From assembly GCF_003201105.1 (NCBI RefSeq), contig NZ_QICJ01000010.1, positions 124,001 through 188,000 on the forward strand: a DNA stretch of 64,000 bases, given 5' to 3'. Shown here piece by piece: positions 17,889-49,677 of the stretch (positions are counted from its first letter, which is position 1; the number at the start of each line of letters is the position of its first letter). Made by a program: the position numbers and the translations under genes. The notes beneath the pieces were generated by a model. It was not told where the DNA came from, made no database searches, and saw only the letters and a list, made by a program, of their open reading frames with translations. Origin of the DNA: Dyella sp. AtDHG13. Its GTDB lineage: Bacteria; Pseudomonadota; Gammaproteobacteria; Xanthomonadales; Rhodanobacteraceae.

Positions 17889-18658
17889 GCGATCCCCCTC
17901 CGCAAGCACGGTTTCCATCTGCTGCTCGGTACTACTTCGCGAAATGCGTTCTTCCTTTCCATCGTGTGCGGCGGAAAGCGGCGCGCACGACACCGCGGGA
18001 TGCTCACTCGAGGCGGCGCATCTCCCTCAACCGTGGTTCTACACGGCCTGTTGCGCAACGAAAACCAGATCAACGATGCGCTTCGCCAGACACGCCGATG
18101 GCGACTCCTGGCCCATGCATCTCCTGAACACGCCCGCACACGCAGTGCAGAGGCGCCTCCCCATGTATGTGTTCAGGTCTATTCGATTGAGCAATAAAAA
18201 ATGTTGCGAGTGCAAGCGGCCCTAACAGCGAAAGGCGGCACAGGCGGCACAGCCTGTTCGCGAATCCACTTGAGAGCATGTGCCCAAGATATGAATTTCA
18301 ATCGATACTTAAAAAAGGACTGGCGCATCTCTTGAGAGATATTTCTTACACAAACTGCAGGCTTTCACCTACAAACTATCTGTGGCGCTTGATGCTCAAC
18401 ACCTGCAGAGGCACGAAGCTATTTGGCGCGCAGGACTGGCGGTCTGGCCCAGCGGTACCAGGGGAATTGCATCCACTGGCCGGGCAAGTAATGGGCCGGC
18501 CGGTCGTTGCGGCCTTAAGTTTCATGGCTGCAATTAATCAGCCATGCGAAACGAGACCGGCGCGTTTTAAGATAAATTTCGCGCCGAAGCGGTTGCACAG
18601 AGCGACCGGCTGAAATTCGGGCTTTGGCAGCCGTGCCAGCCATCGATAACTACGCATA
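17889..18658. other. ~770-bp intergenic region upstream of the NRPS operon
   Basis: No convincing gene: the open frames here are short and have no coding look. It should hold the NRPS operon promoter (minus strand). Visible structures are a perfect palindrome ATCTCT-TG-AGAGAT at 18327-18340 and an 8-bp inverted repeat CATGGCTG/CAGCCATG at 18523-18546. It ends at the left half of the dif-like site. Confidence 0.5.
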
Positions 18659-18663
18659 ATGTA
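18649..18663 (+). other. Left half of a dif-like Xer attachment site, interrupted by the transposon
   Basis: ACTACGCATAATGTA here joins TATCTTTGG at 43144 once the transposon and one copy of its ATGTA duplication are removed. The joined sequence contains CGCATAATGTATAT, identical over 14 bases to E. coli dif (XerC arm plus central hexamer). The XerC arm matches 8 of 11 bases. The XerD-side arm beyond it (TCTTTGGCC) is not dif-like, as is described for TLC-phage-type attachment sites. Confidence 0.65.
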
Positions 18664-18700
18664 GAGGGTCGGCCGAGAATCAGAAAAAAAAGCGCACTTT
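18664..18700 (+). repeat. Left terminal inverted repeat of the Tn3-family transposon
   Basis: 37 bp beginning GAGGGTCGGCCGAGAATC and ending GCGCACTTT, preceded directly by target duplication ATGTA at 18659-18663. Confidence 0.93.
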
Positions 18701-18825
18701 GAGTCCTAACTGTCTGTTGGAATTACAGAATCCGATGAAGACGGCCCGGCGAAGCGTTCCTGCGGTGACTTCGCGCCGCCCAACGAGCCTGGCTAGCCTC
18801 CTAGAGATCATGCAGGCGGCCCACT

Positions 18826-21800
18826 TCATGTGCCCTGCTCGATCACAGGATCGCCTACATCCTCAGTCGCTTGCGGCGTCAGAAGCCTCCGGCTTGCGTC
18901 GTGCGGTACTACGGCTCGTGTCAGGTCGACGGTGTAATCGCCAAACCGGTTGATGTGCGCCGTCCGGTATGGCGACAGCCCTGCCAGGACTTCCGGGGTG
19001 ATTTCATGACCTTCGACCTGTAGTTGGCCAATGGCCCGCGTCATGTGCTCGACGTTATGGAGAATGACCATGTTGGCCACCAGATGGTTGTAGCCGATCA
19101 CCTTCTCCTGCTCATGCCGCAGGTTCTCGGCAATGATGCCCTGCCCACCGAAGAAGGCCCACTGGGCGAAGTTATTGAACTCCTCGCTCTTGTTCGTTGC
19201 CGCCGTGATCATCTGTCGAATCTCCGCGCTGTCAATGTAGCGTAGAAGAAACATCGTTCGGATCACGCGACCCAGCTCGCGGAAGGCGAAGTAAAGCTTG
19301 TTCTTTCGGCTCGCTGTACCCAGACGACGAAGAATGGTCGACGCCGTGATCTTCCCTGTTTTGATCGACACAGCCACGCGCTGCATGTCCGGCAGATGGG
19401 TTTGGATCAGATCCCAGTCGATCACGCCATCACCGAACAACGGGTGCAGATGCGGATAGGCGGTGCCTGCATCCGGTCGCGAAAATGACAGGTCCCGGAG
19501 GTTGCGTATGCGAGGCATCAAGTCGATACCCAATAGGTACGCCAGGGCGAACACCGGGAAGCTCTGCGCCTGTGTATCTCCGTGGATGGTCTTGGGCTGG
19601 ATGTCGGAGTCGTTCTGCAGCACGTCCAGAATATAGATTGCTTCGTAGGTGCCGCAGGCAATGAAGCGGCTCAGCAGCGCGATGTATTTGTCCGAAACGT
19701 GGTAGTAGCCAATCCCACCGTAGCCGCCGTAACGAAGGTGGTACTGCGAGAGCGTGTTCTGCTCGTACATGCTCCACTTGGTGCCGTCGGCTGACGCCGA
19801 CTGGCCACTGCCCCAGTAACCGGGTAGCTCGTAACGGTTGTAGACGTTGATGATGTCCTTCGTCGCTCGCTCGAGCACCTCGTCGGTCACGTACTTCAGG
19901 TTCAACCAGCCCGCCTGCTTTCGGCTCAGATCGCGAAGGGACCGCGCGGTTTGCGTGGGCCCAAGATTGCAGCCATAGCAAAATACGGTCGTGACCACGC
20001 GATACAGCAGGTTGTCGACTTGCGCCTCACTGCCGGCGAGCGGTTTGAAGTGACGCTCCATACCGGTCCAGGTCGCGACATCCTGAAGCACGTCCGTGAT
20101 GGTGGTGGGCTCCATGCGCTCAAGCAGCTTGGCATCCAGGATGGCGATGTCCCGCGTGACCTCCGGACGCTGCGGCTTTCGGAGAATCAGTCGACCATCG
20201 ACGAACGAGGCATCGGCATTTGCTGGGAAACGTCGATTGACCGATTCACACCGCTCGCGCATGGCGTGCCGGAGGTTCTGAACGAACTGCTCTGGTTCCA
20301 CGGCAAGACCCGTCGCCTCGCCATACAGCGGCAGTTCCTGCGCCAAGATCGCATCATCCACCAGCGTCTCGCGGTAGTCGTCAAACTTGTTGGCTCCGGG
20401 GACAAAGAGGTCACCCGATTTCAGCTCATCTTTGATATGGAACAGCGCGGCGAGCTCGAAGAAACGGCGACGCACCCAGGCCGGCGGACCGTACCGGTTC
20501 TTGATCATCGCTTCTTTCCGCCACGTCGCCGACATCCAGGTGAAATCGTCGGGCCACTCCAGGCCTAGCTCTGACAGTGCGAGTGAGTCCCGACGGACGT
20601 CACGGCAGTACTCCAAAACCTCCAACAACCGAGCCGTGTTGTCATCGCTGGAGGTCGAGCGCAGCTGCATGATCGCAAGGCAATTAAGCAGCAACGCGCG
20701 TTGGGCGGCATAGGGACGTTCCAGAAACGGAATGAAATGCTGTCCCGCGTACGCCAGATGTTCGTTGCAATCGGCCACGATCAGTGAAACGGCCCGTTCG
20801 AGCGAGCCTTCGATGGCGGTGATGCGTTCCTCCGCGGTGCCTTCCAGCTGGTATGCCTGCAGGGTCTCCTTCAGCTGAGCCACTAGCGCGTCGGTGCGCT
20901 TCATGTGCTCGGCCTGATAGGTCATCAGGTTCTTTTGGGCGACGTTTTCCAGGTTCTGCAGCAGACGGATGAAGAGCTCGGCGGCGTCATCCAGAGTCTT
21001 GTTGTACTGGGAGCGGATAAAGATGACCGCCAATGCGTGACGTTTCGCCGGATGGTACTCGGCTAGTTCCGCGGCGTCCTTGGCGCGCGCCCAGTCGCGA
21101 AAGAACTTCAACTTGGCGATGGGAATATCCACCGGCGGTAATGAATCCGCCAACGTGCGCAAACGCTGCACATGCGCCAGGTAGTAGCGCACCTCTTTGT
21201 TCCCCGGCTTGCGTGGCTCGCGCTTGAGCGCTTGCCAGCCGCTGCTGGTCATACCCGGTGCGACGGTCAGCAGCGACGCGATCGTCTCCTTGGACGCGGA
21301 TGACAGGCTGTCGTCGATCTGCTTGAAGAAGGTTTCGTGGATGTCCTCCCGGGCCTTGCCGGCCATGGCGTCCAGTAACCCGAATGCTGGCAGCTCGTAC
21401 GAATGCCGAATCAATTCCTCCAGCATGACGTTGATGATGTCAGCCAGATAGTGCCGCGTGCGCGCGGCCTCGCGCGCCACGACGGCGAGCAGATCACGGC
21501 CCCGCTCGCCCAAGCGACGAAGTTTCAGATGATCCCGGATGGCACTGACATGCTTGTCGCGCATGCGGGAGCGATCATAGGTATCCAGATCGGCCAGCCG
21601 AAACGCGCGTCGGAAGCCCATGGCGTGGGCGATATGCCGGGCAATGCGTTCGGGCGTCGGTCCAATCGGCGCGAGCCGGCCAAGGTGCTGAGCCGTCTTC
21701 AGTTGCACCATCGCCGTGAACTGCCGGAGCGGCTGGTCGGCGATCGACCGGATAAACGCCAGGTCCGCCGCCGTGGGCGTGAAAAGGCTTTCCAGATCCG

Positions 21801-21855
21801 CAGCCCCCAGGTCCGCAGGAAGGCGCCGGTACGCGGTCTCGTGCTCTTGAGTCAT
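18826..21855 (-). CDS. tnpA: Tn3-family transposase TnpA
   Basis: 1009 residues, usual length for Tn3-family transposases. It starts RRLPADLGAADLESLFTPTA-like, with an N-terminal DNA-binding region. The C-terminal catalytic core shows SASADGTKWSMYEQ (first Asp), AYLLGIDLMPRIRNL (second Asp) and NKSEEFNNFAQWAFFGGQG (Glu). It binds the 37-bp ends and makes cointegrates by replicative transposition. Its stop lies 125 bp inside the left end. The recombinase gene is immediately upstream on the same strand, 30 bp away. Confidence 0.96.
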   Translation of the reverse strand: MTQEHETAYRRLPADLGAADLESLFTPTAADLAFIRSIADQPLRQFTAMVQLKTAQHLGRLAPIGPTPERIARHIAHAMGFRRAFRLADLDTYDRSRMRDKHVSAIRDHLKLRRLGERGRDLLAVVAREAARTRHYLADIINVMLEELIRHSYELPAFGLLDAMAGKAREDIHETFFKQIDDSLSSASKETIASLLTVAPGMTSSGWQALKREPRKPGNKEVRYYLAHVQRLRTLADSLPPVDIPIAKLKFFRDWARAKDAAELAEYHPAKRHALAVIFIRSQYNKTLDDAAELFIRLLQNLENVAQKNLMTYQAEHMKRTDALVAQLKETLQAYQLEGTAEERITAIEGSLERAVSLIVADCNEHLAYAGQHFIPFLERPYAAQRALLLNCLAIMQLRSTSSDDNTARLLEVLEYCRDVRRDSLALSELGLEWPDDFTWMSATWRKEAMIKNRYGPPAWVRRRFFELAALFHIKDELKSGDLFVPGANKFDDYRETLVDDAILAQELPLYGEATGLAVEPEQFVQNLRHAMRERCESVNRRFPANADASFVDGRLILRKPQRPEVTRDIAILDAKLLERMEPTTITDVLQDVATWTGMERHFKPLAGSEAQVDNLLYRVVTTVFCYGCNLGPTQTARSLRDLSRKQAGWLNLKYVTDEVLERATKDIINVYNRYELPGYWGSGQSASADGTKWSMYEQNTLSQYHLRYGGYGGIGYYHVSDKYIALLSRFIACGTYEAIYILDVLQNDSDIQPKTIHGDTQAQSFPVFALAYLLGIDLMPRIRNLRDLSFSRPDAGTAYPHLHPLFGDGVIDWDLIQTHLPDMQRVAVSIKTGKITASTILRRLGTASRKNKLYFAFRELGRVIRTMFLLRYIDSAEIRQMITAATNKSEEFNNFAQWAFFGGQGIIAENLRHEQEKVIGYNHLVANMVILHNVEHMTRAIGQLQVEGHEITPEVLAGLSPYRTAHINRFGDYTVDLTRAVVPHDASRRLLTPQATEDVGDPVIEQGT

Positions 21856-21885
21856 CCGGGTCGTGTTCCCAGGGGCAGAAGATGA

Positions 21886-23205
21886 TTAATCCCATCGGAG
21901 CCTGCCGTCGTCGTGTTGCGCGACCGTGTCGGCAACGGCACCGTGGTTGTCAGCGATGCGATGGATATCTTCCATCAGGGTTGCCATGGTCTCGCTCAAC
22001 GCCAATTCGTCGGTCGCGGCAACGGTGAGCACGTACGCCGTTCGCGCCGCGTCCTGGGCGACGGCAGCGTGCCGCTGCAGGCAGACGAATTCGATGGCGC
22101 GATGGGCCTGCGCCGCGCCGCGCCGCGAACGACTGGCCGCCAGACGCAGGACGAGCGAGACGACGAAGGTGCGATCGGGGGTTGGCTCGGGAACGGCTGA
22201 CGGGGGTGGCAACGCGAGCGACGGGACAGCCGGCGGATGCTGGGCCAGGCCTTGCTCGATTCGCGATTGCCCGAAGGCGTCGGGGGTGTCGACATAGCGC
22301 ATGGCGGACTGGATGTCTTTCCAGCCCACATATTCCATCAGCGCCTTGGCGTCCCATCCGCTTCCGCTCGCCCAGCCCGCGAAGCCCCGGCGTAACGAGT
22401 GCCCGGTGTATTGCGCCGCGCCGGCCAGTCCTGCCCGGGCGAAGGCTCTACGGAGTACGCCAATGAGGCTATTGGCGTGTAAGGCGCCGGCCCTTACCGT
22501 GCCATGGGCATCGATGGCGCGAAAGAGCGGCCCGTCGGTAAGATGCGCGGCTTCGCGCCACGCCTCAACGGCTGTGACCGGACACAACCGGCTGAGCGCC
22601 GGCACGCGGTGCGTGACACCGGCGGCGAGGCGGTCGCCTTTGCTCCGGGGCAGATATATCAGCATGCCCTGAGCCGGAATCACGGTCACCTGGTCGACGC
22701 GAAGCCGCAGCAATTCGTCGCCGCGAAAGCCTTTCCAGAAGCCAAGCAAGATGAGCGCCCGGTCACGGCGCACCCGCAATCCCATGGCGCGATCGCCACA
22801 GCCATCGGCGGCGGCGATCGCATTAGCCATCCAGGCATCGAGCACGGTGAGATCGCGCAGCTGCAGCGGATCGGCCCGACGTTCCTGGACGTTATGAACA
22901 GCGCGGATTCCTTTCAGCGTCTGACGAACGAGCGTATGTCGCGTCGGATCGGCAAAGCCATGGGATTGGTGCCAATGGGCCAAGGCCGCCAGACGGCTAC
23001 GCAAGGTGTTGAGCGACTGGGTCGCGCCATACGCGGCCAGGTATTCGGCAACGCGCTGCGCCGTCGCCGGCAGCAGGCCACCCCAGGTTTCCTCGAAATG
23101 ACGGACGCCGGCTGCATAGCTCTTCTGCGTATTGTCGCGCGTGCCGGCCTCCACGTAGTCGGCCACGCTGCGCACCGGCACCTCGGGCACGGATGGCGAT
23201 GTCAT
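21886..23205 (-). CDS. Tyrosine recombinase, likely cointegrate resolvase (TnpS/TnpI-like)
   Basis: 439 residues. An N-terminal SAM-like core-binding domain (NTQKSYAAGVRHFEETWGG) precedes a catalytic domain with Arg in WKGFRGDELLRL, Lys in RSKGDR, HSLRRGFAGWA (HxxR) and the nucleophile Tyr in QSAMRYVDTPD. Such enzymes resolve Tn3-type cointegrates where no serine resolvase exists. Together with the KfrA-like gene at 41414 it suggests a TnpS/TnpT pair, although in known members these genes are neighbours. About 90 extra residues follow the Tyr. The start overlaps the upstream gene as ATGA. Confidence 0.87.
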   Translation of the reverse strand: MTSPSVPEVPVRSVADYVEAGTRDNTQKSYAAGVRHFEETWGGLLPATAQRVAEYLAAYGATQSLNTLRSRLAALAHWHQSHGFADPTRHTLVRQTLKGIRAVHNVQERRADPLQLRDLTVLDAWMANAIAAADGCGDRAMGLRVRRDRALILLGFWKGFRGDELLRLRVDQVTVIPAQGMLIYLPRSKGDRLAAGVTHRVPALSRLCPVTAVEAWREAAHLTDGPLFRAIDAHGTVRAGALHANSLIGVLRRAFARAGLAGAAQYTGHSLRRGFAGWASGSGWDAKALMEYVGWKDIQSAMRYVDTPDAFGQSRIEQGLAQHPPAVPSLALPPPSAVPEPTPDRTFVVSLVLRLAASRSRRGAAQAHRAIEFVCLQRHAAVAQDAARTAYVLTVAATDELALSETMATLMEDIHRIADNHGAVADTVAQHDDGRLRWD

Positions 23206-23858
23206 ACCGGGTCCGGCCGCGGACGCAGGGCTTCGAGCATGGTCATGAAGGCGTCGGACAGCTCTTCCTGATAGACGATGAGGCTGTCGTTGAGTTGCCA
23301 GCCGATCCCCTGCGGGCCGAGCCCGGGAAGCGGCACCGGGTAGTCATGTTTGGCGTGACGCTGTTCGGGCTCCCGCTTCGCCAGGGGTACCCGCAGGCGT
23401 GAGAACACCCGTTTGGTCGCCGTGATCGCCGCGACCGATGCGTCGGTTGCGAGCGACGGATCGTGGCGCAGGCGTTCGTCCAGCATGCGGATGAATTCGT
23501 ACACGCCGAGCACCCACAGATGGGCCTGGATCATCACGTGATCGCGCAGTGCAATGTCGTTATCGTCGGTCGCCCACTCGCCCTGGGTATCGACCAGGTC
23601 CTCGCGGCGGATGCCGCGCAGCTTGGCATCGGCCAGACCCAGTAGCTGAATGTGGTGTGGCAAGCTACCGTCGCGGGCGGGATCGCGAATCCAGCGAAAG
23701 GATCGCGTCACCCACGTCTCGTATCGCGCCATATCCATGTCGTCGTGGCCCTGGATGCGAGCCCCGATGATATCGCCCTGCGCGCCGCCCGGCACCCTGT
23801 TCCGGACCGTGTCTGCACCGGTACCCTTGGCCAAGCGCGGGACGAGCGTCTGACACAT
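23202..23858 (-). CDS. Uncharacterised transposon protein in the recombinase operon
   Basis: About 218 residues if it starts at 23858; ATGs at 23738 and 23732 (MDMARYETW) are alternatives, and codon usage looks coding throughout. No family recognised; soluble, with ETWVTRSFRWIRDPA, LRGIRREDLVDTQGEW and a Tyr/Glu-rich C-terminus. The stop overlaps the recombinase start (ATGA), so the two are made together and then run into tnpA. This ties it to transposition or resolution more than to the cargo. The palindrome TCCATATATATGGA at 23858-23871 overlaps its longest start and separates it from the divergent arsC. Confidence 0.55.
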   Translation of the reverse strand: MCQTLVPRLAKGTGADTVRNRVPGGAQGDIIGARIQGHDDMDMARYETWVTRSFRWIRDPARDGSLPHHIQLLGLADAKLRGIRREDLVDTQGEWATDDNDIALRDHVMIQAHLWVLGVYEFIRMLDERLRHDPSLATDASVAAITATKRVFSRLRVPLAKREPEQRHAKHDYPVPLPGLGPQGIGWQLNDSLIVYQEELSDAFMTMLEALRPRPDPV

Positions 23859-23871
23859 CCATATATATGGA
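23858..23871. promoter_or_regulatory. Palindrome between the recombinase operon and arsC (candidate promoter/operator)
   Basis: TCCATATATATGGA is a perfect 14-bp palindrome in the gap between two divergent genes, AT-rich in an otherwise GC-rich element. It could hold -10 elements and/or an ArsR operator. Confidence 0.4.
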
Positions 23872-23920
23872 AACGTGGTATTGTCAGACCGCTTTCTCAT
23901 TGGCCTGCCGGAGCCACAAC

Positions 23921-24448
23921 ATGAGTCACCCCGTCCTTAACGTGCTCTTCCTTTGTACCCACAACTCGGCCCGCTCTGTGCTGGCCGAGAGCATTCTGCG
24001 GCAGGAGGGCGCGGGCCGTTTTCGCGCGTTCTCCGCCGGTAGTTCGCCCAAGTCAGCGGTCAACCCGATGGCCGTCCAGGTCCTTGAGGAACTGGGCTAC
24101 CCGACCGCCGAGCTCACGTCCAAGAGCTGGGATGTCTTTGACGCCGAGGGCGCCCCGGTCATGGATATCGTCATCACCGTGTGCGACAACGCGGCCGGCG
24201 AGATGTGCCCGATCTGGCCCGGTCAGCCGGTCACCGCGCACTGGGGCATCGAGGATCCCTCGGCCGTGGAGGGATCGGAACTGGAGCGCAAGCGCGCCTT
24301 CATGACGGCTTTCCGCTACCTTAAAAACCGCATTACGGCCCTGACGGCCTTGCCGGCGGACCGGCTCGATGCCCTGACGATGCGTGAGGAGCTGAAAAAA
24401 ATCGGTCGCGGCGAAGGCGCCTCGTCGTTGGCCAGTCAGGCCGAGTAA
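23921..24448 (+). CDS. arsC: Arsenate reductase, low-molecular-weight phosphatase (thioredoxin-coupled) type
   Basis: 175 residues. The CX5R loop (CTHNSARS) is near the N-terminus, and further Cys residues sit in VITVCDNAAGEMCPIW as in the thioredoxin-linked ArsC family. It reduces As(V) to As(III) in the cytoplasm. GGAG eight bases upstream supports the ATG at 23921 (MSHPVLNVLFLC). The transposon also carries trxB, which would supply the reducing power. One of three arsenate reductases in the element. Confidence 0.9.
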   Translation: MSHPVLNVLFLCTHNSARSVLAESILRQEGAGRFRAFSAGSSPKSAVNPMAVQVLEELGYPTAELTSKSWDVFDAEGAPVMDIVITVCDNAAGEMCPIWPGQPVTAHWGIEDPSAVEGSELERKRAFMTAFRYLKNRITALTALPADRLDALTMREELKKIGRGEGASSLASQAE

Positions 24449-24461
24449 CGCGGAAGGGGCC

Positions 24462-24836
24462 TCAGGACGCTTTGGCGCGTCGCGGCTTGGCTGCCGCGGC
24501 GCGTTTGACCGCGGTCCGCTTGGTCCCCGGCGCCGGCAGGCAGTCGCCGCCGCTGCCGGCGCAGCAGTTCTCGGTGAGGTAGTCGACCAGCCCGTTCATC
24601 GAAGCGATGACCGGCGCGTAATAGATGAACCGGCCGCTCTGGCGGCTGGTGACCAGGCCGGCATGCAGCAATTCTTTCAGGTGGAACGACAAGGTGGCGC
24701 TGGGCAGGCCCAGCCGTTCACCGATGACGCCCACCGGCAGCCCTTCCGGGCCCTGTTCGATAAGCAGCCGGAAGATCGCCAGGCGAGACTCCTGGGCGAG
24801 CGCGGAAAGAACCTTGATGGCGTCAGCGGTTTTCAT
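24462..24836 (-). CDS. arsR: ArsR/SmtB-family As(III)-responsive repressor (copy 1)
   Basis: 124 residues. Winged-helix core with SATLSFHLKELLHAGLV recognition helix, then ENCCAGSGGDC, a C-terminal Cys cluster of the kind that binds As(III) in the CC-type ArsR group. A Lys/Ala/Arg-rich tail follows. It is convergent with arsC (13 bp apart) and lies just downstream of the pst genes on the same strand. Expected to repress the arsenic genes until As(III) is present. Confidence 0.92.
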   Translation of the reverse strand: MKTADAIKVLSALAQESRLAIFRLLIEQGPEGLPVGVIGERLGLPSATLSFHLKELLHAGLVTSRQSGRFIYYAPVIASMNGLVDYLTENCCAGSGGDCLPAPGTKRTAVKRAAAAKPRRAKAS

Positions 24837-24882
24837 AGGCGGCGATACAGCGGGGCTGGCGAGCAGTGTAGCAAACCGACCC

Positions 24883-26522: not shown

Positions 26523-26531
26523 GGACGTTTC

Positions 26532-27539: not shown

Positions 27540-27622
27540 GGGGATCCCCGAAGCGGACGGAAGAAGACGTGCGTGCGGTGGCGCGGCCGGGCTGGGGAAA
27601 GGTCCCCGCCCGGCACGCACGG

Positions 27623-28651: not shown

Positions 28652-28684
28652 GCGGAAGCTCCAGTGAGTGACTTCGGTTTATAC

Positions 28685-28696
28685 CTCTAGAGATAT
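28685..28696. promoter_or_regulatory. Candidate operator CTCTAGAGATAT upstream of pstS
   Basis: Twelve bases identical, in the same orientation, to 37282-37293 upstream of the DUF4880-domain gene; the core CTCTAGAG is palindromic. Position between pstS start (28651) and the end of arsB fits a repressor site, plausibly for ArsR (inference). Confidence 0.4.
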
Positions 28697-28800
28697 GGAA
28701 GCATGTAGCGTATGACCGTTTGATGACAAGCGACGCAGTCGATGACAGTGAGACGTCGTCTGGCGTGGCGCGCCGTGCGACGCGCCCTGCCCGGGCCGCT

Positions 28801-31004: not shown

Positions 31005-31006
31005 GT

Positions 31007-31022
31007 TTCTAGAATGCTAGAA
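31007..31022. promoter_or_regulatory. Candidate ArsR operator between arsR2 and arsH
   Basis: Two CTAGAA units (TTCTAGAA then TGCTAGAA) in a 50-bp gap between divergent genes. Confidence 0.5.
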
Positions 31023-31053
31023 TCGTCGTCAGCAAGCAACCACTGGAGGAACC

Positions 31054-31839: not shown

Positions 31840-31841
31840 GC

Positions 31842-33301: not shown

Positions 33302-33365
33302 CGACGCAGGGCCTTCACCGCACGCGCCTTGCCCCTGGCGTGACTGCGGCGCGGGACCGCGCCAC

Positions 33366-34517: not shown

Positions 34518-34609
34518 GCGCGTCCGGGTCGGCCGACGTCGGAGGCAGGCGACGGACGTGCGGGCGCCAGGGGCATGCGGAAGGCTCGCTTGAAGAGAAG
34601 GATATATAA

Positions 34610-35623
<1,014 letters not shown>

Positions 35624-35713
35624 GCCGCATGGCCCGGTCCGTGAGCCTCGATGCCCGTGAACACGGACCGGGCGTGAAACGACATCCCCGTGCCCCTGAT
35701 TCGGAGCCTTGCC

Positions 35714-37081
35714 ATGCACCTGCTTATCATCGGCGGTAGCGACGCCGGCATCAGTGCGGCGCTGCGTGCCCACGAGATCGATCCGGCCGCCGACATCACG
35801 CTGCTGCTCGCCGACGATTACCCGAATTTCAGCATTTGCGGGCTGCCGTATTTCCTGAGTGGCCAGACGCCGCACTGGCAGCAGCTGGCCCATCGCACCG
35901 ATTTCCCCGGCATCCGAGTGCTTCGTGGCCACATCGCACGTTCGATCGATGCCGTGGCCAGGAGGGTGCATGTCGAGCACGCCGGCGCATTACGGCCGAT
36001 CCCCTATGACCGCCTGATCGTCGCCACGGGTGCCACGCCGGTGCGGCCATCGATCACCGGCGGCACGCTGGAGGGGGTCTACACCCTGCATACGATGGAC
36101 GAGAGCTTCGCCATCGACCGGCACATCACGGAGCGATCGCCACGCTCGGCGGTGATCGTGGGCGCCGGCTACATCGGCTTGGAGATGGCTGATGCGCTGA
36201 CCCGGCGCGGCTTGCAGGTCACCCTCCTGAGCCGTTCAACCGACGTGCTTCCCACCGTCGACGCGGCGTTGGCGAGGCGGGTGGTCGACGAGTTGCACCA
36301 CCATGGCGTGCGGGTGGTATCGGGCGTGAGCGCGCAGCGGATCGATGCGGCCGGCGCAGGTGGCACGGCCTTCGCCCTGCGGGTGGCCGATTCAGAAGGC
36401 GGACGCCACGGTGCCGACCTGGTGATCCTCGCCGTGGGCGTGCGGCCGTCCAGCGAGCTCGCAGAACGTGCCGGTGCGGCTCTGGGCGTGCATGGCGCGA
36501 TTGCCGTGACGCGGCAGATGCAGACGAACCTGCCGGATGTACTCGCCGCCGGCGACTGCGCGACGACGTACCACCGCCTGCTCGACGCGCCCACCTACCT
36601 GTCGCTGGGCACCATCGCCCACAAGCAAGGTCGCGTCGCCGGGGAACGCGCGGTCGGTGGAGCGTGCGAATTCGCCGGCACCGTCGGCTCGCAGAGCCTG
36701 AAGGTGTTTGACCTGGCCATCGCCCGCACCGGCCTGCTCGGGCACGAAGCGCGCGACGCCGGATTCGATCCGCTGACCGTGGCGATCCAGGCCGACGATC
36801 ACAAGTCGTACTTTCCAGGGGCGGTGCCGCTGCAGCTTCGGATCACCGGGGACCGGCGCAGCGGTCGGCTGCTCGGCGCGCAAATCCTCGGCGATCGCCG
36901 CGCGGAGGTGTCCAAGCGGATCGACATCGTGGCCGCGGCGCTCTATCAGGGGGCAAGCGTGGAGCAGCTCAACGAACTGGACCTCACCTACACACCGCCA
37001 TTCAGTAGTCCTTGGGACCCGGTACAGCTCGCGGCACAGGCGTGGCAGGCCCAGCGTGCGGCGCGCGGCCGCTCCGTGTAA
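35714..37081 (+). CDS. FAD-dependent pyridine nucleotide-disulfide oxidoreductase (CoA-disulfide reductase-like)
   Basis: 455 residues. LLIIGGSDAGISAALRA (FAD), the single redox Cys in NFSICGLPYFLSG, SAVIVGAGYIGLEMADAL (NADH), DVLAAGDCATTYHR and a C-terminal dimerisation domain (LQLRITGDRRSGRLLGAQIL). The single-Cys architecture matches CoA-disulfide reductases and NADH oxidases. Relatives are frequent in arsenic islands, where they may handle thiol or persulfide stress. The exact substrate is not assigned. Confidence 0.85.
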   Translation: MHLLIIGGSDAGISAALRAHEIDPAADITLLLADDYPNFSICGLPYFLSGQTPHWQQLAHRTDFPGIRVLRGHIARSIDAVARRVHVEHAGALRPIPYDRLIVATGATPVRPSITGGTLEGVYTLHTMDESFAIDRHITERSPRSAVIVGAGYIGLEMADALTRRGLQVTLLSRSTDVLPTVDAALARRVVDELHHHGVRVVSGVSAQRIDAAGAGGTAFALRVADSEGGRHGADLVILAVGVRPSSELAERAGAALGVHGAIAVTRQMQTNLPDVLAAGDCATTYHRLLDAPTYLSLGTIAHKQGRVAGERAVGGACEFAGTVGSQSLKVFDLAIARTGLLGHEARDAGFDPLTVAIQADDHKSYFPGAVPLQLRITGDRRSGRLLGAQILGDRRAEVSKRIDIVAAALYQGASVEQLNELDLTYTPPFSSPWDPVQLAAQAWQAQRAARGRSV

Positions 37082-37108
37082 TCCCGTGTGCAGGCGCTCG
37101 CGGACGGG

Positions 37109-37192
37109 TTCGCAGCCGGCGACGTCGCCGACCACGTCTACCGCCAGGCCATGACCTCGGCCGGTTTCGGCTGCATGGCGGCGCGAGAGGCG
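37109..37192 (+). pseudogene. trxB 3'-end fragment (duplicated remnant)
   Basis: About 80 bp nearly identical to trxB positions ~35498-35581, encoding [20 protein letters not shown]. There is no start or rest of the gene. It marks a past duplication or recombination in the cargo, between the oxidoreductase gene and the DUF4880-domain gene. Confidence 0.8.
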
Positions 37193-37281
37193 GGACTAAC
37201 GCCACACCGTGGGATGACGGCGACCCCTTGGCCGGGCTTGTGCCTATCACGGTTGATTGTCGCCACGTCGTAGTACAACTA

Positions 37282-37293
37282 CTCTAGAGATAT
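37282..37293. promoter_or_regulatory. Candidate operator CTCTAGAGATAT upstream of the DUF4880-domain gene
   Basis: Identical 12-mer to the one before pstS; followed by AT-rich DNA and GGAGG four bases before the next ATG. Confidence 0.4.
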
Positions 37294-37314
37294 AGATATT
37301 TTAACGGAGGCCAT

Positions 37315-37686
37315 ATGCCGCGTGCCACTGCCCGGGGGAACATCACGCTTCGCCAGTCTCGGCCAGCATCGATCGGCACAGGCGTGACGGTTTCACTCAG
37401 TGCCATGTGCTTGTGGGCGGTGCATGGCATCGAGCGGCTGCGCCGCCGCCGCGCGGAACGTCAGGCGCGTGCCTGGCTGCTGCAGCTGACCTCCGGTCGC
37501 GCCACCACCGACGATGCGCGGGCATTCCGCCAGTGGTGTCATCAGGCGACGAGGCACAGGATCGCTTTTGCCCGCACGCGTGACCAGTGGATGCGCCTCA
37601 ACGCCGCCGCAGGGTCCCGCTTGACCGTCCCGCCGCACACGGTTAGTCATGACGACCGGTGTCCGCCCGCTGACGCCGACTGCTAA
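37315..37686 (+). CDS. Small protein with FecR N-terminal (DUF4880-like) domain
   Basis: 123 residues. RQARAWLLQLTSGRATTDDARAFRQWCHQATRHRIAFARTRDQWMRL matches in pattern the short N-terminal domain of FecR-type sigma-factor regulators. The periplasmic FecR part and any membrane helix are absent, and no ECF sigma gene is nearby. It is either a domain-only regulator or a remnant. It has a good ribosome site (GGAGG) and the shared operator-like 12-mer upstream. Confidence 0.55.
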   Translation: MPRATARGNITLRQSRPASIGTGVTVSLSAMCLWAVHGIERLRRRRAERQARAWLLQLTSGRATTDDARAFRQWCHQATRHRIAFARTRDQWMRLNAAAGSRLTVPPHTVSHDDRCPPADADC

Positions 37687-37702
37687 CCACTTCCCGGCGA
37701 CG

Positions 37703-38053
37703 TCATGACGAGGGGAACGCGCCATCGCCATCGAGCCATCGACCGAGCGCGTCCAGGTCGCCGCTATCCTCCGGCGCAGGCAATGGCGCGCTGAGATACT
37801 TGGCGAGAGCCGCATCAATGCGATCCACCATGCCCCAGTGACACGCCAGTATCGGCGTCAGCTCCGTCACCGGGTCGATCCGGCCGAATTCGAACCATAT
37901 GCGAGCTGTCCAGGCGTCGGCAAAGACGGGGGCGACGCGGAGAAAGACGCGCGCGGCGGCAGACGAATAGCCCACAGCCGGGCTCGAGGACATCGTCGCG
38001 GGCGGGCGCTGCATGTGCCAGAGGAGTGCATTGACGTAGCTCACCTCGTCCAT
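37703..38053 (-). CDS. Hypothetical protein, third gene of the XRE-SseB operon
   Basis: 116 residues, no family recognised. Starts MDEVSYVNALLWHMQRPP and contains FADAWTARIWFEFGRIDPVTELTP. No signal peptide or clear membrane helix. It begins 12 bp after the SseB-like gene on the same strand, so probably co-transcribed with it and with the XRE regulator. Confidence 0.55.
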   Translation of the reverse strand: MDEVSYVNALLWHMQRPPATMSSSPAVGYSSAAARVFLRVAPVFADAWTARIWFEFGRIDPVTELTPILACHWGMVDRIDAALAKYLSAPLPAPEDSGDLDALGRWLDGDGAFPSS

Positions 38054-38065
38054 CGCACCTATCCG

Positions 38066-38821
38066 CTAGTGCGGCGCTGACGCTGCGCGGCTGCTCAGCA
38101 CCGGGGCGATACCCATCCTTGTCAGTGCCTCAACGACCTCATCGCCGGCACGGAGGAAACACACGTCCACGGGCAGCCTCCCCAGGTACGCTTCCGAAAC
38201 AATGGCACCGATGTCCTGGGCGATTGTGACGTCGTATGGGCTAACGACACCCACAGCCAGCGAATGGATCGAGCCATGGGCCTCGGGGCGGTGAAGGTCG
38301 TAGATGAAGATGGTTGGCGCGGTGGCTTGCCGGTCGAAATGGCTCTGAAGCGCCGCGATAAGCGCGCGCGGGTCCTCGGTCGCGGTGCCGATCGAAATAT
38401 CGGCACCTTGTGGGATCGCGCTGGCTTGCGCACCGGCGTGAATCGTCCCGTCCTTCAACAGCATCGCAATGGTGTCCGGCGGAAGATCCAACGCCACCGG
38501 CCCGGCGGGATTGAGTCGAAAGTGTCCGCGTGGCATCGCTTCGATAAGGCGCTTGAGCGAGTCCGACACGATCTCGACCGAGGCCGGTTGTCCGGCGGGG
38601 ATGCGTGCCGCGTCCGAGAAGATCGGGACGAAGGTGACCTGGTCCTTGGGATCCCGCCAGCCCACCACGACACGGACTTCAGATCGGCCGTTGGCAGCCG
38701 GCACACGGGAGACCGGGACCAGCACCGTGCTGTCGGCGAGCAGCCGGTAAAACTCAGGCATCAGGCCCGGATCGGCGGCGGCAAGCTGCAGTCGTTCGCC
38801 GAGGATATCTTTGCTGCTCAA
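38066..38821 (-). CDS. SseB-family protein (copy 1)
   Basis: 251 residues. N-terminal SseB domain: VLVPV, VTFVPIFSDAARI and the typical LNPAGPVALDLPPDTIAMLLKDG. C-terminal SseB_C-like half: IFIYDLHRPEAHGSI to LRAGDEVVEALTRMGIAPVL. TTG start with GGGAG six bases upstream. SseB proteins are linked to serine sensitivity and toxin-secretion loci; biochemical role unclear. A second SseB-like gene lies at 52184 beside the same kind of XRE/small-protein pair. Confidence 0.78.
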   Translation of the reverse strand: MSSKDILGERLQLAAADPGLMPEFYRLLADSTVLVPVSRVPAANGRSEVRVVVGWRDPKDQVTFVPIFSDAARIPAGQPASVEIVSDSLKRLIEAMPRGHFRLNPAGPVALDLPPDTIAMLLKDGTIHAGAQASAIPQGADISIGTATEDPRALIAALQSHFDRQATAPTIFIYDLHRPEAHGSIHSLAVGVVSPYDVTIAQDIGAIVSEAYLGRLPVDVCFLRAGDEVVEALTRMGIAPVLSSRAASAPH

Positions 38822-38850
38822 CGGATCTCCCTGGCGCGTTCGTCACGCCG

Positions 38851-39168
38851 CTACGTGCCCTCAACGGTTTTTAGCAGACGCTCCTTGTCGGCGACCGACA
38901 TCTGGTCGAACGCCAGGATCATCCGCGCCAGGCGCTCGTCGCCGGCGAACAGATAGGCCGTCGGTACCGACAAGGCGCTCGCCAGACGCTCAGCCGTGGC
39001 CATGTCCGGCTGATGGACGCCTAGCTCATACCGGTTGATGCGCGTACTGGCCACAAAGGGATCCAAGCCTGCCCGAATACCGAGTTCTTTCTGCGAAAGT
39101 TGAAGCTGTTCCCGGGCCGCTTTGAGGCGGTGCTGGAAAACCAGCCGAATGTCCTGCTGACGCGCCAT
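38851..39168 (-). CDS. XRE-family HTH regulator (copy 1)
   Basis: 105 residues. Helix-turn-helix of the Cro/CI type: LQLSQKELGIRAGLDPFVAS, RINRYELGVHQPD, LASALSVPTAYLF. The C-terminal helix is MILAFDQMSVADKERLLKTV. Roughly three quarters identical to the protein at 51346. It faces a divergent small gene across a 126-bp gap with two TACGA-N3-TCGTA operators, so autoregulation and control of the partner are likely. Confidence 0.92.
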   Translation of the reverse strand: MARQQDIRLVFQHRLKAAREQLQLSQKELGIRAGLDPFVASTRINRYELGVHQPDMATAERLASALSVPTAYLFAGDERLARMILAFDQMSVADKERLLKTVEGT

Positions 39169-39192
39169 AGTCCGAACCCGGTAGGAGGGACC

Positions 39193-39243
39193 TACGAGAT
39201 TCGTAACTTCGCCTTGCGCTGGATACTACGAGTTTCGTAGTAT
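39193..39243. promoter_or_regulatory. Twin operators for XRE copy 1
   Basis: Site A TACGAGATTCGTA (39193-39205) and site B TACGAGTTTCGTA (39227-39239), start-to-start spacing 34 bp. Site B extends to perfect 9-bp arms ATACTACGA / TCGTAGTAT (39223-39243). The same pair with the same spacing occurs at 51688-51738 beside the related XRE gene. Confidence 0.8.
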
Positions 39244-39294
39244 CGGCTGCAACCGTACGCCTTTCATGTGTTTAGGCTTTCTCGGTGCATAGCC

Positions 39295-39642
39295 ATGCAG
39301 CTCATGCTCGACGATGAATCCGGCATTCCCATCCCCATGGACGACTTCGTCCGCGAGGCCTGGGCGGTCCAATTCGGCCGTGCCGCTGCGAATCAGGCCG
39401 TTGAGCAGCTGTGCGAGCGCCTGGCCGAGTGCTTCGCCTCCAGCCTGGCCGAATGTCTCGATGCCGACCTGCAACTGCCCACCGAGGCCCAGGTCCGCTA
39501 TGCAACCGACATTTCCCGGCATCTGGGCGTCTCGCTGCCTGCTGAGGCGCTGCGGTTTCGTGGGGCGATGTACGACTTCCTCGACCGTTTTGCCGAGTCC
39601 CACCGTCTCCGCCGTCGTGTGCCACGGGAAGACATCACCTGA
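39295..39642 (+). CDS. Small conserved partner protein of the XRE module (copy 1)
   Basis: 115 residues. MQLMLDDESGIPIPMDDFVREAW, then a Cys/Leu-rich helix (ASSLAECLDADLQLPTEAQV) and RYATDISRHLGVSLPAEALR. Closely similar to the protein at 51781. No function known to me. Divergent from the XRE gene across twin operators; ends six bases before the convergent cyclase gene. Confidence 0.7.
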   Translation: MQLMLDDESGIPIPMDDFVREAWAVQFGRAAANQAVEQLCERLAECFASSLAECLDADLQLPTEAQVRYATDISRHLGVSLPAEALRFRGAMYDFLDRFAESHRLRRRVPREDIT

Positions 39643-39647
39643 GTCGA

Positions 39648-40400
39648 TTACACCAGGCCACGCAGTAGCGACCCGGTCGGGGGGCGCAGCATCCAGCGGG
39701 ATCGCAAGATGAAGTGGGTGTCGGGCGTCGGCGCGTCCGGCCAGGGGACGACTTCCCATAGCGACTGCCCGTCCACGGCATAGACCAGCGTCGCCGGATC
39801 GAAGAGGCCGCCGAAGACCGTGCCGGTGATGTGGGTGCCGTATGGATCGGTGCGTATGGCGGAGAGCTTGGCCGCGACATTCGGCGCACGGCCGATCCAG
39901 ACCAGGTCGTTGCTACGTCGGATTCCCGCTCGCGTTGCCATCACGTCGCTTCGGTCGATGCCGACACCGTGACTCATCAGGTAGCCCGCCTGACGCAAAC
40001 CGGGCACGTGCCGATCGAGCGCCGGACGCATCAGCTCGTGGACGGCATAGAAAATATGCATCGCTGCGCTGACTGCGCGCTGCTCTTGGTTGGGCCCGAC
40101 AAAAACCCCCATGACGCGATCGCCGTCAAAGCTTCGGATGTGTCCCTGGTGATAGCGGATGATGTCGCAGGTCGGCCCAAGGAAGAGCTTGATGACCATC
40201 GCGGCAACGCGTGGATCAAAGCGAGTCGCCAGCAACGTCGAATCGGCCAGATCGGCATAGAGCATCGTCGCTGACATCGTCACCCCGCCGCCGGCAAGAG
40301 CCACATCATCGGACTTCGGCACCACCAGGCCAGCGCGGGTGCTCCAGCGCTCGGTCGTGATCGACTCGATCCGTGCGGCGAGATCGTGGTAGAGCGCCAT
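39648..40400 (-). CDS. Pycsar-type nucleotide cyclase (PycC-like, class III cyclase fold)
   Basis: 250 residues. Metal-binding Asp in MLYADLADST and in SFDGDRVMGVF, with the transition-state Asn region LVWIGRAPNVAAKLS. Short N-terminal part ERWSTRAGLVVP as in PycC proteins. In Pycsar defence, such enzymes make cCMP or cUMP upon phage infection and the nucleotide switches on a membrane or TIR effector. The adjoining gene (1-bp TAATG overlap, upstream) encodes a membrane effector of the matching kind. Whether it makes cC, cU or cAMP is not readable. Confidence 0.8.
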   Translation of the reverse strand: MALYHDLAARIESITTERWSTRAGLVVPKSDDVALAGGGVTMSATMLYADLADSTLLATRFDPRVAAMVIKLFLGPTCDIIRYHQGHIRSFDGDRVMGVFVGPNQEQRAVSAAMHIFYAVHELMRPALDRHVPGLRQAGYLMSHGVGIDRSDVMATRAGIRRSNDLVWIGRAPNVAAKLSAIRTDPYGTHITGTVFGGLFDPATLVYAVDGQSLWEVVPWPDAPTPDTHFILRSRWMLRPPTGSLLRGLV

Positions 40401-41146
40401 TAGCGAGACACCGACAAGGCCAATACCGCCAAGGCGACCAGCCAGGGCGCGACGCTCAGCCCCATCCAGAAGTAGGCTCGCTTCAGGCGATCAAATTTGA
40501 CCGTCAAAATCTTCGCGTTGATCCACGCCTGGTCGATGATGTCATCTGTATGGGCACCGAGGTTGCGCTGGCTGAATCGTGTTCGGTAGTCGGCTTCGTC
40601 CAGTTGGGCAACGGTCCGAAAGTAGATCAGCGAGCGCTCGCCATCGGTCAGGTGAGGAAACGAGCCGCGGTACAGCAGGATGAGGCTCGCAACCTGCATG
40701 ACAGCAAAGAGCGCAATCGCGCCGATCACGGAAGGTGAGACGTCGCTAACGGGCAGGACTTTGGCAAAAGCGATACTGATCATCGCCAGGTCCACCGCCA
40801 GAACCACAGATAGCTTGGTCTCGACCCGCGCGAAGAAGGACAGCACCAGGGCCAGTTGGTCTTTTGCCCGGCCGGCGAGCTCCTCGTTCATGCCTGGGTC
40901 CGGCGAGGACGTCACCGTTGACCGGGTCGGTTCGGTACCCACCAAGGCCAGGTCGACAGCAGCCGTCGCGGCTCGAACGGCGGCTGTCGCCTGTGCGGCG
41001 ACTTGTTCTAACGCCGGGTCGTCCACCGCGTCCGTCACGGTGAGAGCCTGGCCGTCGTGCCAGCCTGCCGCCTCCACGACCGTGTCCGCCACGGCCAAAA
41101 CCCACTGCGTGCCTGCCTGGCGAAGAACCGCGCGAACCTCTGTCAT
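40400..41146 (-). CDS. Pycsar-type membrane effector (PycTM-like) with an extra N-terminal domain
   Basis: 248 residues. C-terminal ~160 residues: two hydrophobic helices (LSVVLAVDLAMISIAFAKVL; VIGAIALFAVMQVASLILLY), a linker with DDIIDQAWINAKILTVKFDR, and a last helix (GLSVAPWLVALAVLAL), the PycTM/DUF5706-type layout. Residues 1-45 (VRAVLRQAGTQWVLAVADTV, then VEAAGWHDGQALTV) resemble an AbrB/MazE-like hairpin domain. GGAGG before the ATG fixes the start. It would permeabilise the membrane when the cyclic nucleotide appears. Here the effector precedes the cyclase. Confidence 0.75.
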   Translation of the reverse strand: MTEVRAVLRQAGTQWVLAVADTVVEAAGWHDGQALTVTDAVDDPALEQVAAQATAAVRAATAAVDLALVGTEPTRSTVTSSPDPGMNEELAGRAKDQLALVLSFFARVETKLSVVLAVDLAMISIAFAKVLPVSDVSPSVIGAIALFAVMQVASLILLYRGSFPHLTDGERSLIYFRTVAQLDEADYRTRFSQRNLGAHTDDIIDQAWINAKILTVKFDRLKRAYFWMGLSVAPWLVALAVLALSVSR

Positions 41147-41292
41147 GAGCTCCTCCTTACGTGGGGCAGGAGCGTACCGGCACAGGCGCCTGATTGGCAG
41201 GCCTGAAAAGGGCCTCTGCGCTCGTTTCAAACGACGACCGCACGCCCGTTCTGTACCGCTTCGGAGGCGGAGGGAGGCACGACAACGCCATG

Positions 41293-41321
41293 AGGCGGGA
41301 TAACTTTTGATTATCCCGCCT
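41293..41321. other. 11-bp inverted repeat with 7-bp spacer; candidate recombination core site
   Basis: AGGCGGGATAA (41293-41303), spacer CTTTTGA, TTATCCCGCCT (41311-41321): perfect arms in the layout of tyrosine-recombinase core sites. It lies between two genes that diverge from it, so a terminator role is unlikely. It is 93 bp before the TnpT-like gene. Confidence 0.45.
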
Positions 41322-41363
41322 TCAATTTCGTGCCGATCAACCGCTTGACGGCATGCGTTGTAG

Positions 41364-41388
41364 TACGTATATACGTAGTATGTACTAC
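41364..41388. promoter_or_regulatory. Palindromes upstream of the TnpT/KfrA-like gene
   Basis: Perfect palindrome TACGTATATACGTA (41364-41377) overlapping GTAGTA-TG-TACTAC (41375-41388). KfrA-type proteins bind such repeats upstream of their own gene; may also belong to the resolution site. Confidence 0.5.
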
Positions 41389-41413
41389 GGTACGATAAAC
41401 AGAGGGGCCGATC

Positions 41414-42442
41414 ATGGCACGTGGCAGAGTCTATAAATCCGAGGTCAAGACGGCTCGGGACGCGCTTCTGCGGCAGGGCACGAATCCTTCGCTGGATGCT
41501 GTTCGCATCGCCTTGGGCAATACCGGCTCCAAAACGACGATCCATCGCCTGATGAGGGAACTGGAGGCCGAAGAGGCCGAGGCGACCCCGCGGAACGGCG
41601 AAGCGGTGAGCGACGCATTGCAAGGCTTAGTGAGCCAATTGGCAGCCCAGCTCCGCGAGGAAGCCGATTCGATCGTCGCCGCCGGTCAGGCCGAGGCGGC
41701 GGCAAAAGTGGCGGCTGCTCGCGAGGATGTCGCCCGGCTCACCCAGCAAGGGCAAGATGCCAGCGCGCAGATCCAGCGCCTGCAGACCACGTTGGATGAG
41801 GTACACCAGGCGCTGACCACCACCGAACGAGCCGCACGCGATCGGGACACGACGATCGTCGGTCTGAACGAGCGCATCGCCGGCCTTGAGCGTCAACTCG
41901 GCGAGCGCGAGGCTCACCTAATGTCGGCAGAGACCAAACACCAGCAGGCGCGCGATGCCCTGGAGCACTTCAGACAAGCATCCCGGGAGCAACGGGACAC
42001 CGAGGCGCGTCAGCATGAACAGGCTGTGCAAGCCCTCCAGGTCGAACTCCGTCGCGCGACGGACGCGGTGGCATCGAAGAACGACGAACTGCTGAGCCTC
42101 AACAGGGCCAACGCCCGATACACCGAGCAAGTGGGCCAACTCGACAAGGAACTGCGGGACACCCGTCGGACGTTACAGACGGCCCAGACGCGCGTCGCGG
42201 AGGCCGAAGGCCTGCGCCAGGCCAATCAGGCGCTCGAGCAACGCGTCAGTCAGTTAACCGTCGACATCGAGGCCATGCGCCGCGAACAGACGACAGCGCA
42301 CATGCAATGGGATGGCGAACGCGCTGCACTGGCCGATGCCTTGCGAGAGGCCAGAGCCCAGGGCGAGCGGTGGGGGACGATCGAGGCCATGCTATCCAAT
42401 CTTCAGCCAACTTCACCAGCGATCGATGGATCGTCGAGCTGA
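41414..42442 (+). CDS. KfrA-like coiled-coil DNA-binding protein, probable TnpT resolution factor
   Basis: 342 residues. The N-terminal ~60 residues are a KfrA_N-type DNA-binding domain (MARGRVYKSEVKTARDALL, TGSKTTIHRLMRELEAEE). From ~70 to ~330 it is one long coiled coil rich in Glu/Gln/Ala/Arg heptads. In Tn4651-type transposons TnpT has this build and assists the tyrosine recombinase TnpS at the rst site. Here the two genes are 18 kb apart, with the cargo between. Palindromes directly upstream fit autoregulation. Confidence 0.8.
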   Translation: MARGRVYKSEVKTARDALLRQGTNPSLDAVRIALGNTGSKTTIHRLMRELEAEEAEATPRNGEAVSDALQGLVSQLAAQLREEADSIVAAGQAEAAAKVAAAREDVARLTQQGQDASAQIQRLQTTLDEVHQALTTTERAARDRDTTIVGLNERIAGLERQLGEREAHLMSAETKHQQARDALEHFRQASREQRDTEARQHEQAVQALQVELRRATDAVASKNDELLSLNRANARYTEQVGQLDKELRDTRRTLQTAQTRVAEAEGLRQANQALEQRVSQLTVDIEAMRREQTTAHMQWDGERAALADALREARAQGERWGTIEAMLSNLQPTSPAIDGSSS

Positions 42443-42497
42443 TGCGCTCCACGGTACGATCGCATTCGTTACGTTCTCAATGAGGAAGGACAACGGC

Positions 42498-42929
42498 ATG
42501 GCGATGGAACAGGGAGAAAAGATGGCAACGGACGATGAGCTGCTGATCCACGTACGGCTCATGGGCGGCTGCGATCACCCAGACTTCATTTTCAAAACAG
42601 AGAAGGATTGGGGACATCAGTTCGAATACGCCGCATGCACCCGTTGCAATGCGAAGGCTCATCTTTTTCGAGGGCTGGGCGGCACGCCGGATCCCTTGCG
42701 CGAACTCAAACGCCTCATACCACGACACTGCCAAGACATGATTGCCGTCAACAAGGTGCTTCGGCATCTGGAAAGCCAGGGCTGGCATTGGACCGTGCAG
42801 CGGCGGAATGGCTCGCACCAATTCGTTCTCGCAAATGGATCGCTACGAGTGGAGGGAGCTCCTCACGCGGACGAGACGGCAGCCGCCGCCTCAACACTAA
42901 TTCGGTTGGCGAATTCCGCCTCGGCTTGA
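42498..42929 (+). CDS. Hypothetical protein downstream of the TnpT-like gene
   Basis: 143 residues from the ATG at 42498 (AGGAAGGA upstream); ATGs at 42480 and 42522 are alternatives. Contains GGCDHPDFIF, YAACTRCNAKAHLFRGLGG (paired Cys, possible metal site) and LRHLESQGWHWTVQRRNGSH. No family recognised. About 55 bp after the TnpT-like gene on the same strand and last gene before the right terminal repeat. Confidence 0.6.
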   Translation: MAMEQGEKMATDDELLIHVRLMGGCDHPDFIFKTEKDWGHQFEYAACTRCNAKAHLFRGLGGTPDPLRELKRLIPRHCQDMIAVNKVLRHLESQGWHWTVQRRNGSHQFVLANGSLRVEGAPHADETAAAASTLIRLANSASA

Positions 42930-43101
42930 TCGTAAAGTCTGGATTTACCGCTCCCACAAGGCCATTTCTTCTTCACGTCGGTAATGCGCGCTCGCTAGCG
43001 GGCTAGACGCGCCCGACATCCGACTGACGACGCCGGCTGGCATCGCAGAGCGAGGGGGCGATGAGAACATAAAGCCTCGGCGTTTCAGCGCCTTATGACG
43101 G

Positions 43102-43138
43102 AAAGTGCGCTTTTTTTGGGGATTCTCGGCCGACCCTC
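43102..43138 (-). repeat. Right terminal inverted repeat of the Tn3-family transposon
   Basis: Reverse complement matches the left repeat at 34 of 37 positions; followed directly by ATGTA at 43139-43143, the second copy of the target duplication. Confidence 0.93.
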
Positions 43139-43143
43139 ATGTA

Positions 43144-43160
43144 TATCTTTGGCCGGCTTA
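43144..43160 (+). other. Right half of the interrupted dif-like site
   Basis: TATCTTTGGCCGG continues CGCATAATGTA from the left flank of the transposon. The arm on this side lacks XerD-site similarity (dif has TTATGTTAAAT). Confidence 0.6.
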
Positions 43161-49665: not shown

Positions 49666-49677
49666 AGCGATCTCCTT

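Follow-up and report, generated by a model that had tools for sequence, protein, structure and literature searches.

A Tn7-like transposon that probably homes on dif, and two neighbouring mobile elements, in a Dyella-related bacterium

The Tn7-like transposon and its ends

We analysed a 64,000-nucleotide stretch of contig NZ_QICJ01000010.1 (here C10) of Dyella sp. AtDHG13, called the window below. It holds three neighbouring mobile elements: a Tn7-like transposon, a short element with a xafT-like gene, and a Tn3-family transposon that interrupts a half-site of dif. dif is the site at which chromosomes that have become joined are resolved in bacteria. Our main subject is the Tn7-like transposon and its relation to the dif of this genome, which is found on a second contig, C27.

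The operon of the Tn7-like transposon lies on the minus strand. Its TnsB-like DDE transposase (47099..48991, 630 amino acids (aa)) was recognised from an AlphaFold model (predicted local distance difference test, pLDDT, 76.7) built from 17 aligned TnsBs, in which the acidic residues are invariant. The model matched ShCAST TnsB (E = 3.8e-16), Tn7 TnsB (1.2e-11) and MuA (2.8e-11). A TniQ/TnsD-like protein of 453 aa (44750..46111) matched TniQ.1 in a profile search of PDB (E = 7.9e-5) and the TniQ family of Pfam below its cut-off (E = 4.7e-4), whilst the top matches of its structural model (pLDDT 83) were TnsD (E = 0.003) and ShTniQ (0.02-0.04). This protein is likely the target selector. Between the two genes lies a TnsC-like ATPase (46080..47102, 340 aa) with a Walker A-like motif, GNGRDGKT, seen by eye. 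A TnsA-like protein (48970..49818) completes the operon, and a relative of it accompanies tnsB at 16 of the 22 other loci compared. Pfam alone missed most of these genes and single-sequence PDB searches gave no result. A search of genome contigs for named relatives of the window's TnsB found none; a 4-row sub-alignment query found four named loci.

The tniQ-side end of the transposon, TGTTCTCGGC..., lies at 44539..44748. It matches, at 18 of 20 bp, an end at position 3288 of C27, where the dif XerC arm is 63 bp away. The 5-bp target-site duplication ACGGC stands at 44534..44538 in the window and again on C27 beside dif. A TnsB-type transposase, a TniQ/TnsD protein and paired ends with a 5-bp duplication at a fixed target are thus all present, as in Tn7-like transposons. 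DNA shared with locus L033, which encodes a 73% identical TnsB and has no xafT, runs to about 44539. A similar boundary was seen between loci L045 (genome G152) and L046 (G207), which are 88% identical up to the very edge of xafT, present in L045 only. The element of G207, a close relative of that in G152, lacks xafT, indicating that xafT and the Tn7-like element are separable. The ends of L045 and L046 carry repeats, mostly at a spacing of 30-31 bp.

Accessory genes on both strands occupy 50287..52945 of the window. They comprise an open reading frame (ORF) at 50287-51183 (+), similar by eye to one in L045, a helix-turn-helix gene at 51346-51663 (-) and an SseB-like gene at 52184-52945 (+), the last two lying in DNA shared with L033. 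C27 itself holds further features around dif. On the XerD side is a small TniQ-like ORF (2236-3084; Pfam E = 0.009), which may be all that is left of a further Tn7-like element. Diverged inverted copies (76%) of a KfrA-like gene and the start of a tyrosine recombinase (1-1236 and 3775-5007) flank dif. We considered whether these pieces were copies of the window's Tn3 transposon and rejected this: blastn of C27 against the window gave no match, and of the 18 dif stretches of the genus searched, 6 hold similar DNA near dif, two of the matches being partial.

The XafT module and the split half-site

The xafT-like gene is listed as an ORF at 43556..44707 (-). It scores 75.1 bits against NF040522 (cut-off 70) and E = 8.5e-10 against DUF3653, with its hidden Markov model match at 44171-44491, so the VC1465/XafT-like gene of the original prediction is real. 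The listed start falls inside the Tn7-like end and the true start is therefore probably near 44500. Between the half-site and xafT lies orfx, a conserved small ORF region (43263..43616, -) with 37% identity over 123 aa to L045:10399-10830 (E = 4e-10) and DNA similarity to L104, the corresponding locus of G055.

The half-site is in two parts, both read on the plus strand: CGCATAATGTA (18653..18663), the XerC arm with the start of the central region, and ATGTATATCTTTGG... (43139..43158), which has no XerD arm. Rejoined across the Tn3 insertion, the flanks read CGCATAATGTATATCTTTGG, and the split site itself is CGCATAATGTATAT followed by CTTTGG, in which the XerC arm and the centre of dif are present and the XerD arm is absent. 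The 14-mer CGCATAATGTATAT has exactly one other copy in the 5.1-Mb genome, within the dif of C27 (5,007 bp), CGCATAATGTATATTATGTCAAAT. One such dif was found per genome in 20/20 genomes of the genus, this one included, and it is dif itself that places the region near the terminus.

Comparison with relatives lacking the Tn3 transposon bore out the predicted half-site. In G055 an uninterrupted CGCATAATGTATATCTTTGG with the same CTTTGG flank (L104:8441) forms the outer end of a module in which orfx, xafT and dif (10001) follow, spanning 1,560 bp in all, and the orfx and xafT DNA resembles that of the window. This intact copy at a module end is the best evidence that the split half-site is not a chance match. 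Modules of half-site, xafT and dif also occur in G202 (1,651 bp) and G136 (1,558 bp), each half-site differing by one change from that of the window and G055. An outer attachment site of XerC arm and centre, with the true dif at the other end, is intact in L104, L146 and L052. In the window the module spans about 1.4 kb (43139-44538) and its far dif is on the other contig. Across the family, XafT matches were found in 60 of 233 genomes at E<=1e-5, 21 of them above the NF040522 cut-off. A full dif was present in 11 of the 17 short stretches scanned, out of 30 XafT loci returned. This arrangement in intact relatives suggests that the element integrated into dif through the XafT/Xer mechanism. 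The predicted Xer-exploiting element with an end split by a transposon thus stands as regards its gene, its attachment site and its intact counterpart at dif in G055, but two points had been missed: it covers only about 1.4 kb, and a separate Tn7-like transposon lies on its right.

The interrupting element is a Tn3-family transposon of 24,475 bp (18664..43138), as predicted. Its inverted repeats (18664-18709 and 43093-43138) are identical at 40 of 46 bp and its 5-bp duplication, ATGTA, is present at 18659-18663 and 43139-43143. TnpA (18826..21855, -, 1009 aa; DDE_Tnp_Tn3, E = 2.9e-142) is certainly a Tn3-family transposase, and beside it lies the gene of a tyrosine recombinase of 439 aa (21886..23205, -; Phage_integrase, E = 4.4e-12). 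Tn3-family elements usually choose AT-rich targets, and the insertion into the half-site is thus probably incidental. It separates the XerC arm from the remaining half-site, so it is plausible that this end of the Xer element has been locked in place.

Several genes accompany these elements. The Tn3 cargo includes an anti-phage Pycsar system (39648-41623, -) with the cyclase PycC (E = 6e-74) and a 2TM/PycTM effector, and an ArsB gene (28801-30102) travels in the same transposon. A 733-bp stretch of 70% identity is common to this cargo (38870-39597) and the Tn7-like element (51365-52083). Non-ribosomal peptide synthetase genes (6353-17785, -) lie directly left of the split half-site.

Association of the TnsB family with dif

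Relatives of the window's TnsB were found in 25/233 genomes of the family, 46/397 of the order and 6/370 of the class, in overlapping sets that include this genome. In all 32 tabulated genomes with TnsB and dif on the same contig the two lie within 138 kb, at a median of 48 kb. Outside this table are a 33rd same-contig case that wraps the record start (G827), genomes in which TnsB and dif fall on separate contigs (G000, G054, G063, G152, G166, G201, G202, G711, G745, G782 and G814) and genomes in which no dif was found (G020, G023, G082, G208, G210, G225, G229, G761 and G823). In genomes of one or two contigs, TnsB lies within 138 kb of dif in 10/10 cases compared with 9/57 for rve-type transposases of the same genomes (Fisher 3.7e-7, with the distance cut-off fixed after the data were seen). 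Operons of the core clade are directed away from dif in 17/17 cases and lie on its XerC side in 14.

The ends were examined by a test that looked for an end at a distance of 40-200 bp from dif, for its partner 2,200-4,200 bp after tnsB, and for an exact 5-bp target duplication. With an end match of at least 14/20 on the XerC side, 9 of 23 same-genome pairs passed, against none of 506 mismatched pairs. The nine ends lie 63 bp (G000, the window's own genome), 70 bp (G777), 52 bp (G826), 59 bp (G151), 52 bp (G163), 115 bp (G124), 80 bp (G735), 86 bp (G821) and 59 bp (G772) from the XerC arm. The stretches of G636, G370, G808, G655, G358, G395, G820 and G741 stood outside this test. Paired ends, target duplications, orientation and spacing beside dif are thus all observed. 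In L145 and L139 (G201 and G124), two sets of end-like repeats stand to the left of dif, the further ones seen by eye between the element and dif, perhaps from repeated insertion at a hotspot.

Taken together, we consider it likely that dif serves as the attachment site of a widespread Tn7-like clade, whose members insert on its XerC side by way of TniQ/TnsD (a few perhaps together with an Xer-like recombinase that has lost its activity and is encoded alongside), and that dif is a stacking site where Xer-integrated XafT elements and Tn7-like elements meet.

A number of results weigh against this view. Three of the 17 core operons and 5 of 15 distant relatives are on the XerD side, and the distant relatives are mixed in general, with 11 directed towards dif and 10 on the XerC side. 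Both the distance and the end-match cut-offs were chosen after seeing the data. At a looser end match of at least 13, 10/23 elements pass (adding G063, at 138 bp) with 1/506 mismatched pairs and 1/23 on the XerD side (G746), leaving 13/23 that score below 13 at dif. G101, G166 and G152 have end matches of 17-19/20 at 58-75 bp from dif but unmatched duplications, as would be expected if related elements were stacked there, an explanation that is not proved. The element of G207 lies beside an ordinary gene 138 kb from dif, those of G076 and G802 are XerD-side elements for which no end could be seen beside dif, and a separate test of the distant relatives G636, G370, G808 and G655 gave no convincing end at dif. 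Among plasmid relatives (61 records, mostly Burkholderiales) no dif-like site was present in the four stretches fetched, and the wider clade may thus have other targets. rve-type transposases are themselves somewhat frequent near dif. Within the window's operon, the TnsC-like profile matched ShTnsC (E = 0.086) behind ORC5 (0.011), both weakly, and the TnsA-like protein, for which Pfam, NCBIfam and a PDB profile search gave no TnsA match, is identified by position only. C10, which terminates in the apparent start of an insertion sequence (IS) transposase, does not overlap C27. As the two contigs are not physically joined, the composite element is reconstructed from its ends, duplication and homology.

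Proposed history and its alternatives

The best explanation, which we hold to be quite probable, is that in this Dyella-related bacterium the chromosomal dif is a hotspot, that the window shows one of its arms, and that three elements have settled there, one of them a dif-homing Tn7-like transposon. A XafT element of about 1.4-1.6 kb (half-site, orfx and xafT) would first have been integrated into dif by the host XerCD, leaving the true dif at one end and, at the other, an outer site of XerC arm and centre only. The Tn7-like transposon would next have entered the interval from xafT to dif, at a distance of 63 bp from the XerC arm and with duplication of ACGGC. In this second step TniQ/TnsD, alone or via XerCD, may mark dif, TnsC may assemble beside it on the XerC side, and TnsB may join the ends at a distance of some 50-115 bp, in the orientation that turns the tniQ-distal end towards dif. 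TniQ/TnsD appears to be the dif selector, as no obvious gene lies between tniQ and the end in the window or in L033. Lastly, the Tn3-family transposon, with arsenic-type and Pycsar genes, would have inserted into the outer half-site, within its AT-rich centre.

The strongest alternative is a variant in which the cue is something beside or bound to dif, such as XerCD or FtsK, or a termination structure reached by a TnsE-like route, and not the dif DNA. The variable spacing between end and dif (52-115 bp) would fit this variant, as would the suggestion of Harmer et al. that the transposase of a dif-targeting IS may contact bound XerC. Between the ends and dif, however, only dif looks conserved by eye, and no TnsE-like gene was noticed, though no search was aimed at TnsE. 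We regard this variant as possible but rather unlikely.

Much less probable is a single large Xer-mobile island, in which the tns genes are cargo of the XafT element moved by XerCD and their closeness to dif results from Xer integration. xafT does directly adjoin the Tn7-like end in two genera (the window's own and that of G152), both with a dif half-site on the xafT side. Against this, a XafT-domain match was found in only one of 18 stretches with TnsB relatives (L045), some of them cut by contig ends, and two short matches in L033 fall upstream of the domain. The G207 element has no xafT, and nine elements have TnsB-type ends and exact 5-bp duplications near dif, which Xer recombination does not produce. 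The whole right flank as one Xer island was rejected, being largely refuted by these duplication-verified insertions. Least probable of all is a terminus bias, by which mobile elements gather near dif generally and the TnsB family has no fixed target: the nine rve-type transposases within 138 kb and the elements of G207, G076 and G802, near dif with no end beside it, would fit, but the excess of TnsB over rve-type transposases in the same genomes (with its post hoc cut-off), the single orientation of the 17 core operons and the ends close beside dif in nine genomes (52-115 bp) speak against it.

Homing of the Tn7-like clade on dif would have wider consequences. dif, found exactly once per genome in the 20 genomes of the genus and conserved across species, offers mobile DNA a safe target that is always present. 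The targets known for Tn7-like transposons are genes; a member that homes instead on the site of Xer resolution would, if true, link two well-studied machines, provide a new natural target selector to study and make one ask how dimers can still be resolved next to inserts that are tens of kilobases long. It may also partly explain the accumulation of islands at the terminus.

Comparison with known systems

The Tn3-family transposon has the Tn3-type DDE transposase, terminal inverted repeats and 5-bp duplication of its family. The XafT element shares its VC1465/XafT family gene and integration at dif with TLC satellite phages and other XafT-bearing integrative mobile elements exploiting Xer (IMEX). 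The attachment site of TLC reportedly has the XerC arm and the centre and lacks the XerD arm. With a XafT gene above the curated cut-off and an outer attachment site lacking the XerD arm, the element here probably belongs with this class, for which FtsK-independent recombination begun by XerD is characteristic, but at about 1.6 kb it has little room beyond xafT and orfx. XafT is also mentioned in PMC9765430.

With Tn7 and other transposons using TnsD or TniQ, the window's element shares TnsB and TniQ, joined here by putative TnsA and TnsC, the TnsB-type fold, the 5-bp duplication and a fixed site and orientation (PMC10293859). Their targets are glmS, comM or a tRNA gene, whereas here the target appears to be dif; the whole word 'dif' does not occur in the main text of PMC10293859. 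A tyrosine-recombinase-like protein follows tniQ in L045 (8197-9117) and L046 (5947-6867). Its catalytic residues look altered by eye and it may be a selector resembling TnsF of Tn6022, likewise a tyrosine-recombinase-like protein by tniQ that is apparently catalytically altered (PMC10293859). The published target of TnsF is comM, and in the window's element tniQ has no such protein after it.

A TnsB-like enzyme that targets dif is already known from ISAjo2-type IS (PMC10132070). As described there, ISAjo2 and the IS1202 family share with the window's family a TnsB-like DDE transposase, TGT...ACA ends, a 5-bp duplication and an orientation that is fixed relative to the adjoining XerC site, both at pdif and at chromosomal dif. 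They are, however, 1.5-kb IS with one transposase of 441-457 aa, inserted 5 bp from the XerC site (PMC10132070). The window's family instead has a 630-aa TnsB with TnsA-, TnsC- and TniQ-like partners, ends 52-115 bp away, and cargo. The window's own element, which has a tns-like operon and whose end stands at 63 bp from the XerC arm, falls outside the IS1202 group of single-gene IS. No TnsABC-TniQ element targeting dif was present among the literature matches listed, which cover the field in part (in three cases 20 of 70, 20 of 61,750 and 20 of 62 matches). Within this limited coverage, a complete TnsABC-TniQ element targeting dif would be new relative to the known dif-targeting IS, and ISAjo2/IS1202 are the nearest precedent for a dif-homing Tn7-like family.

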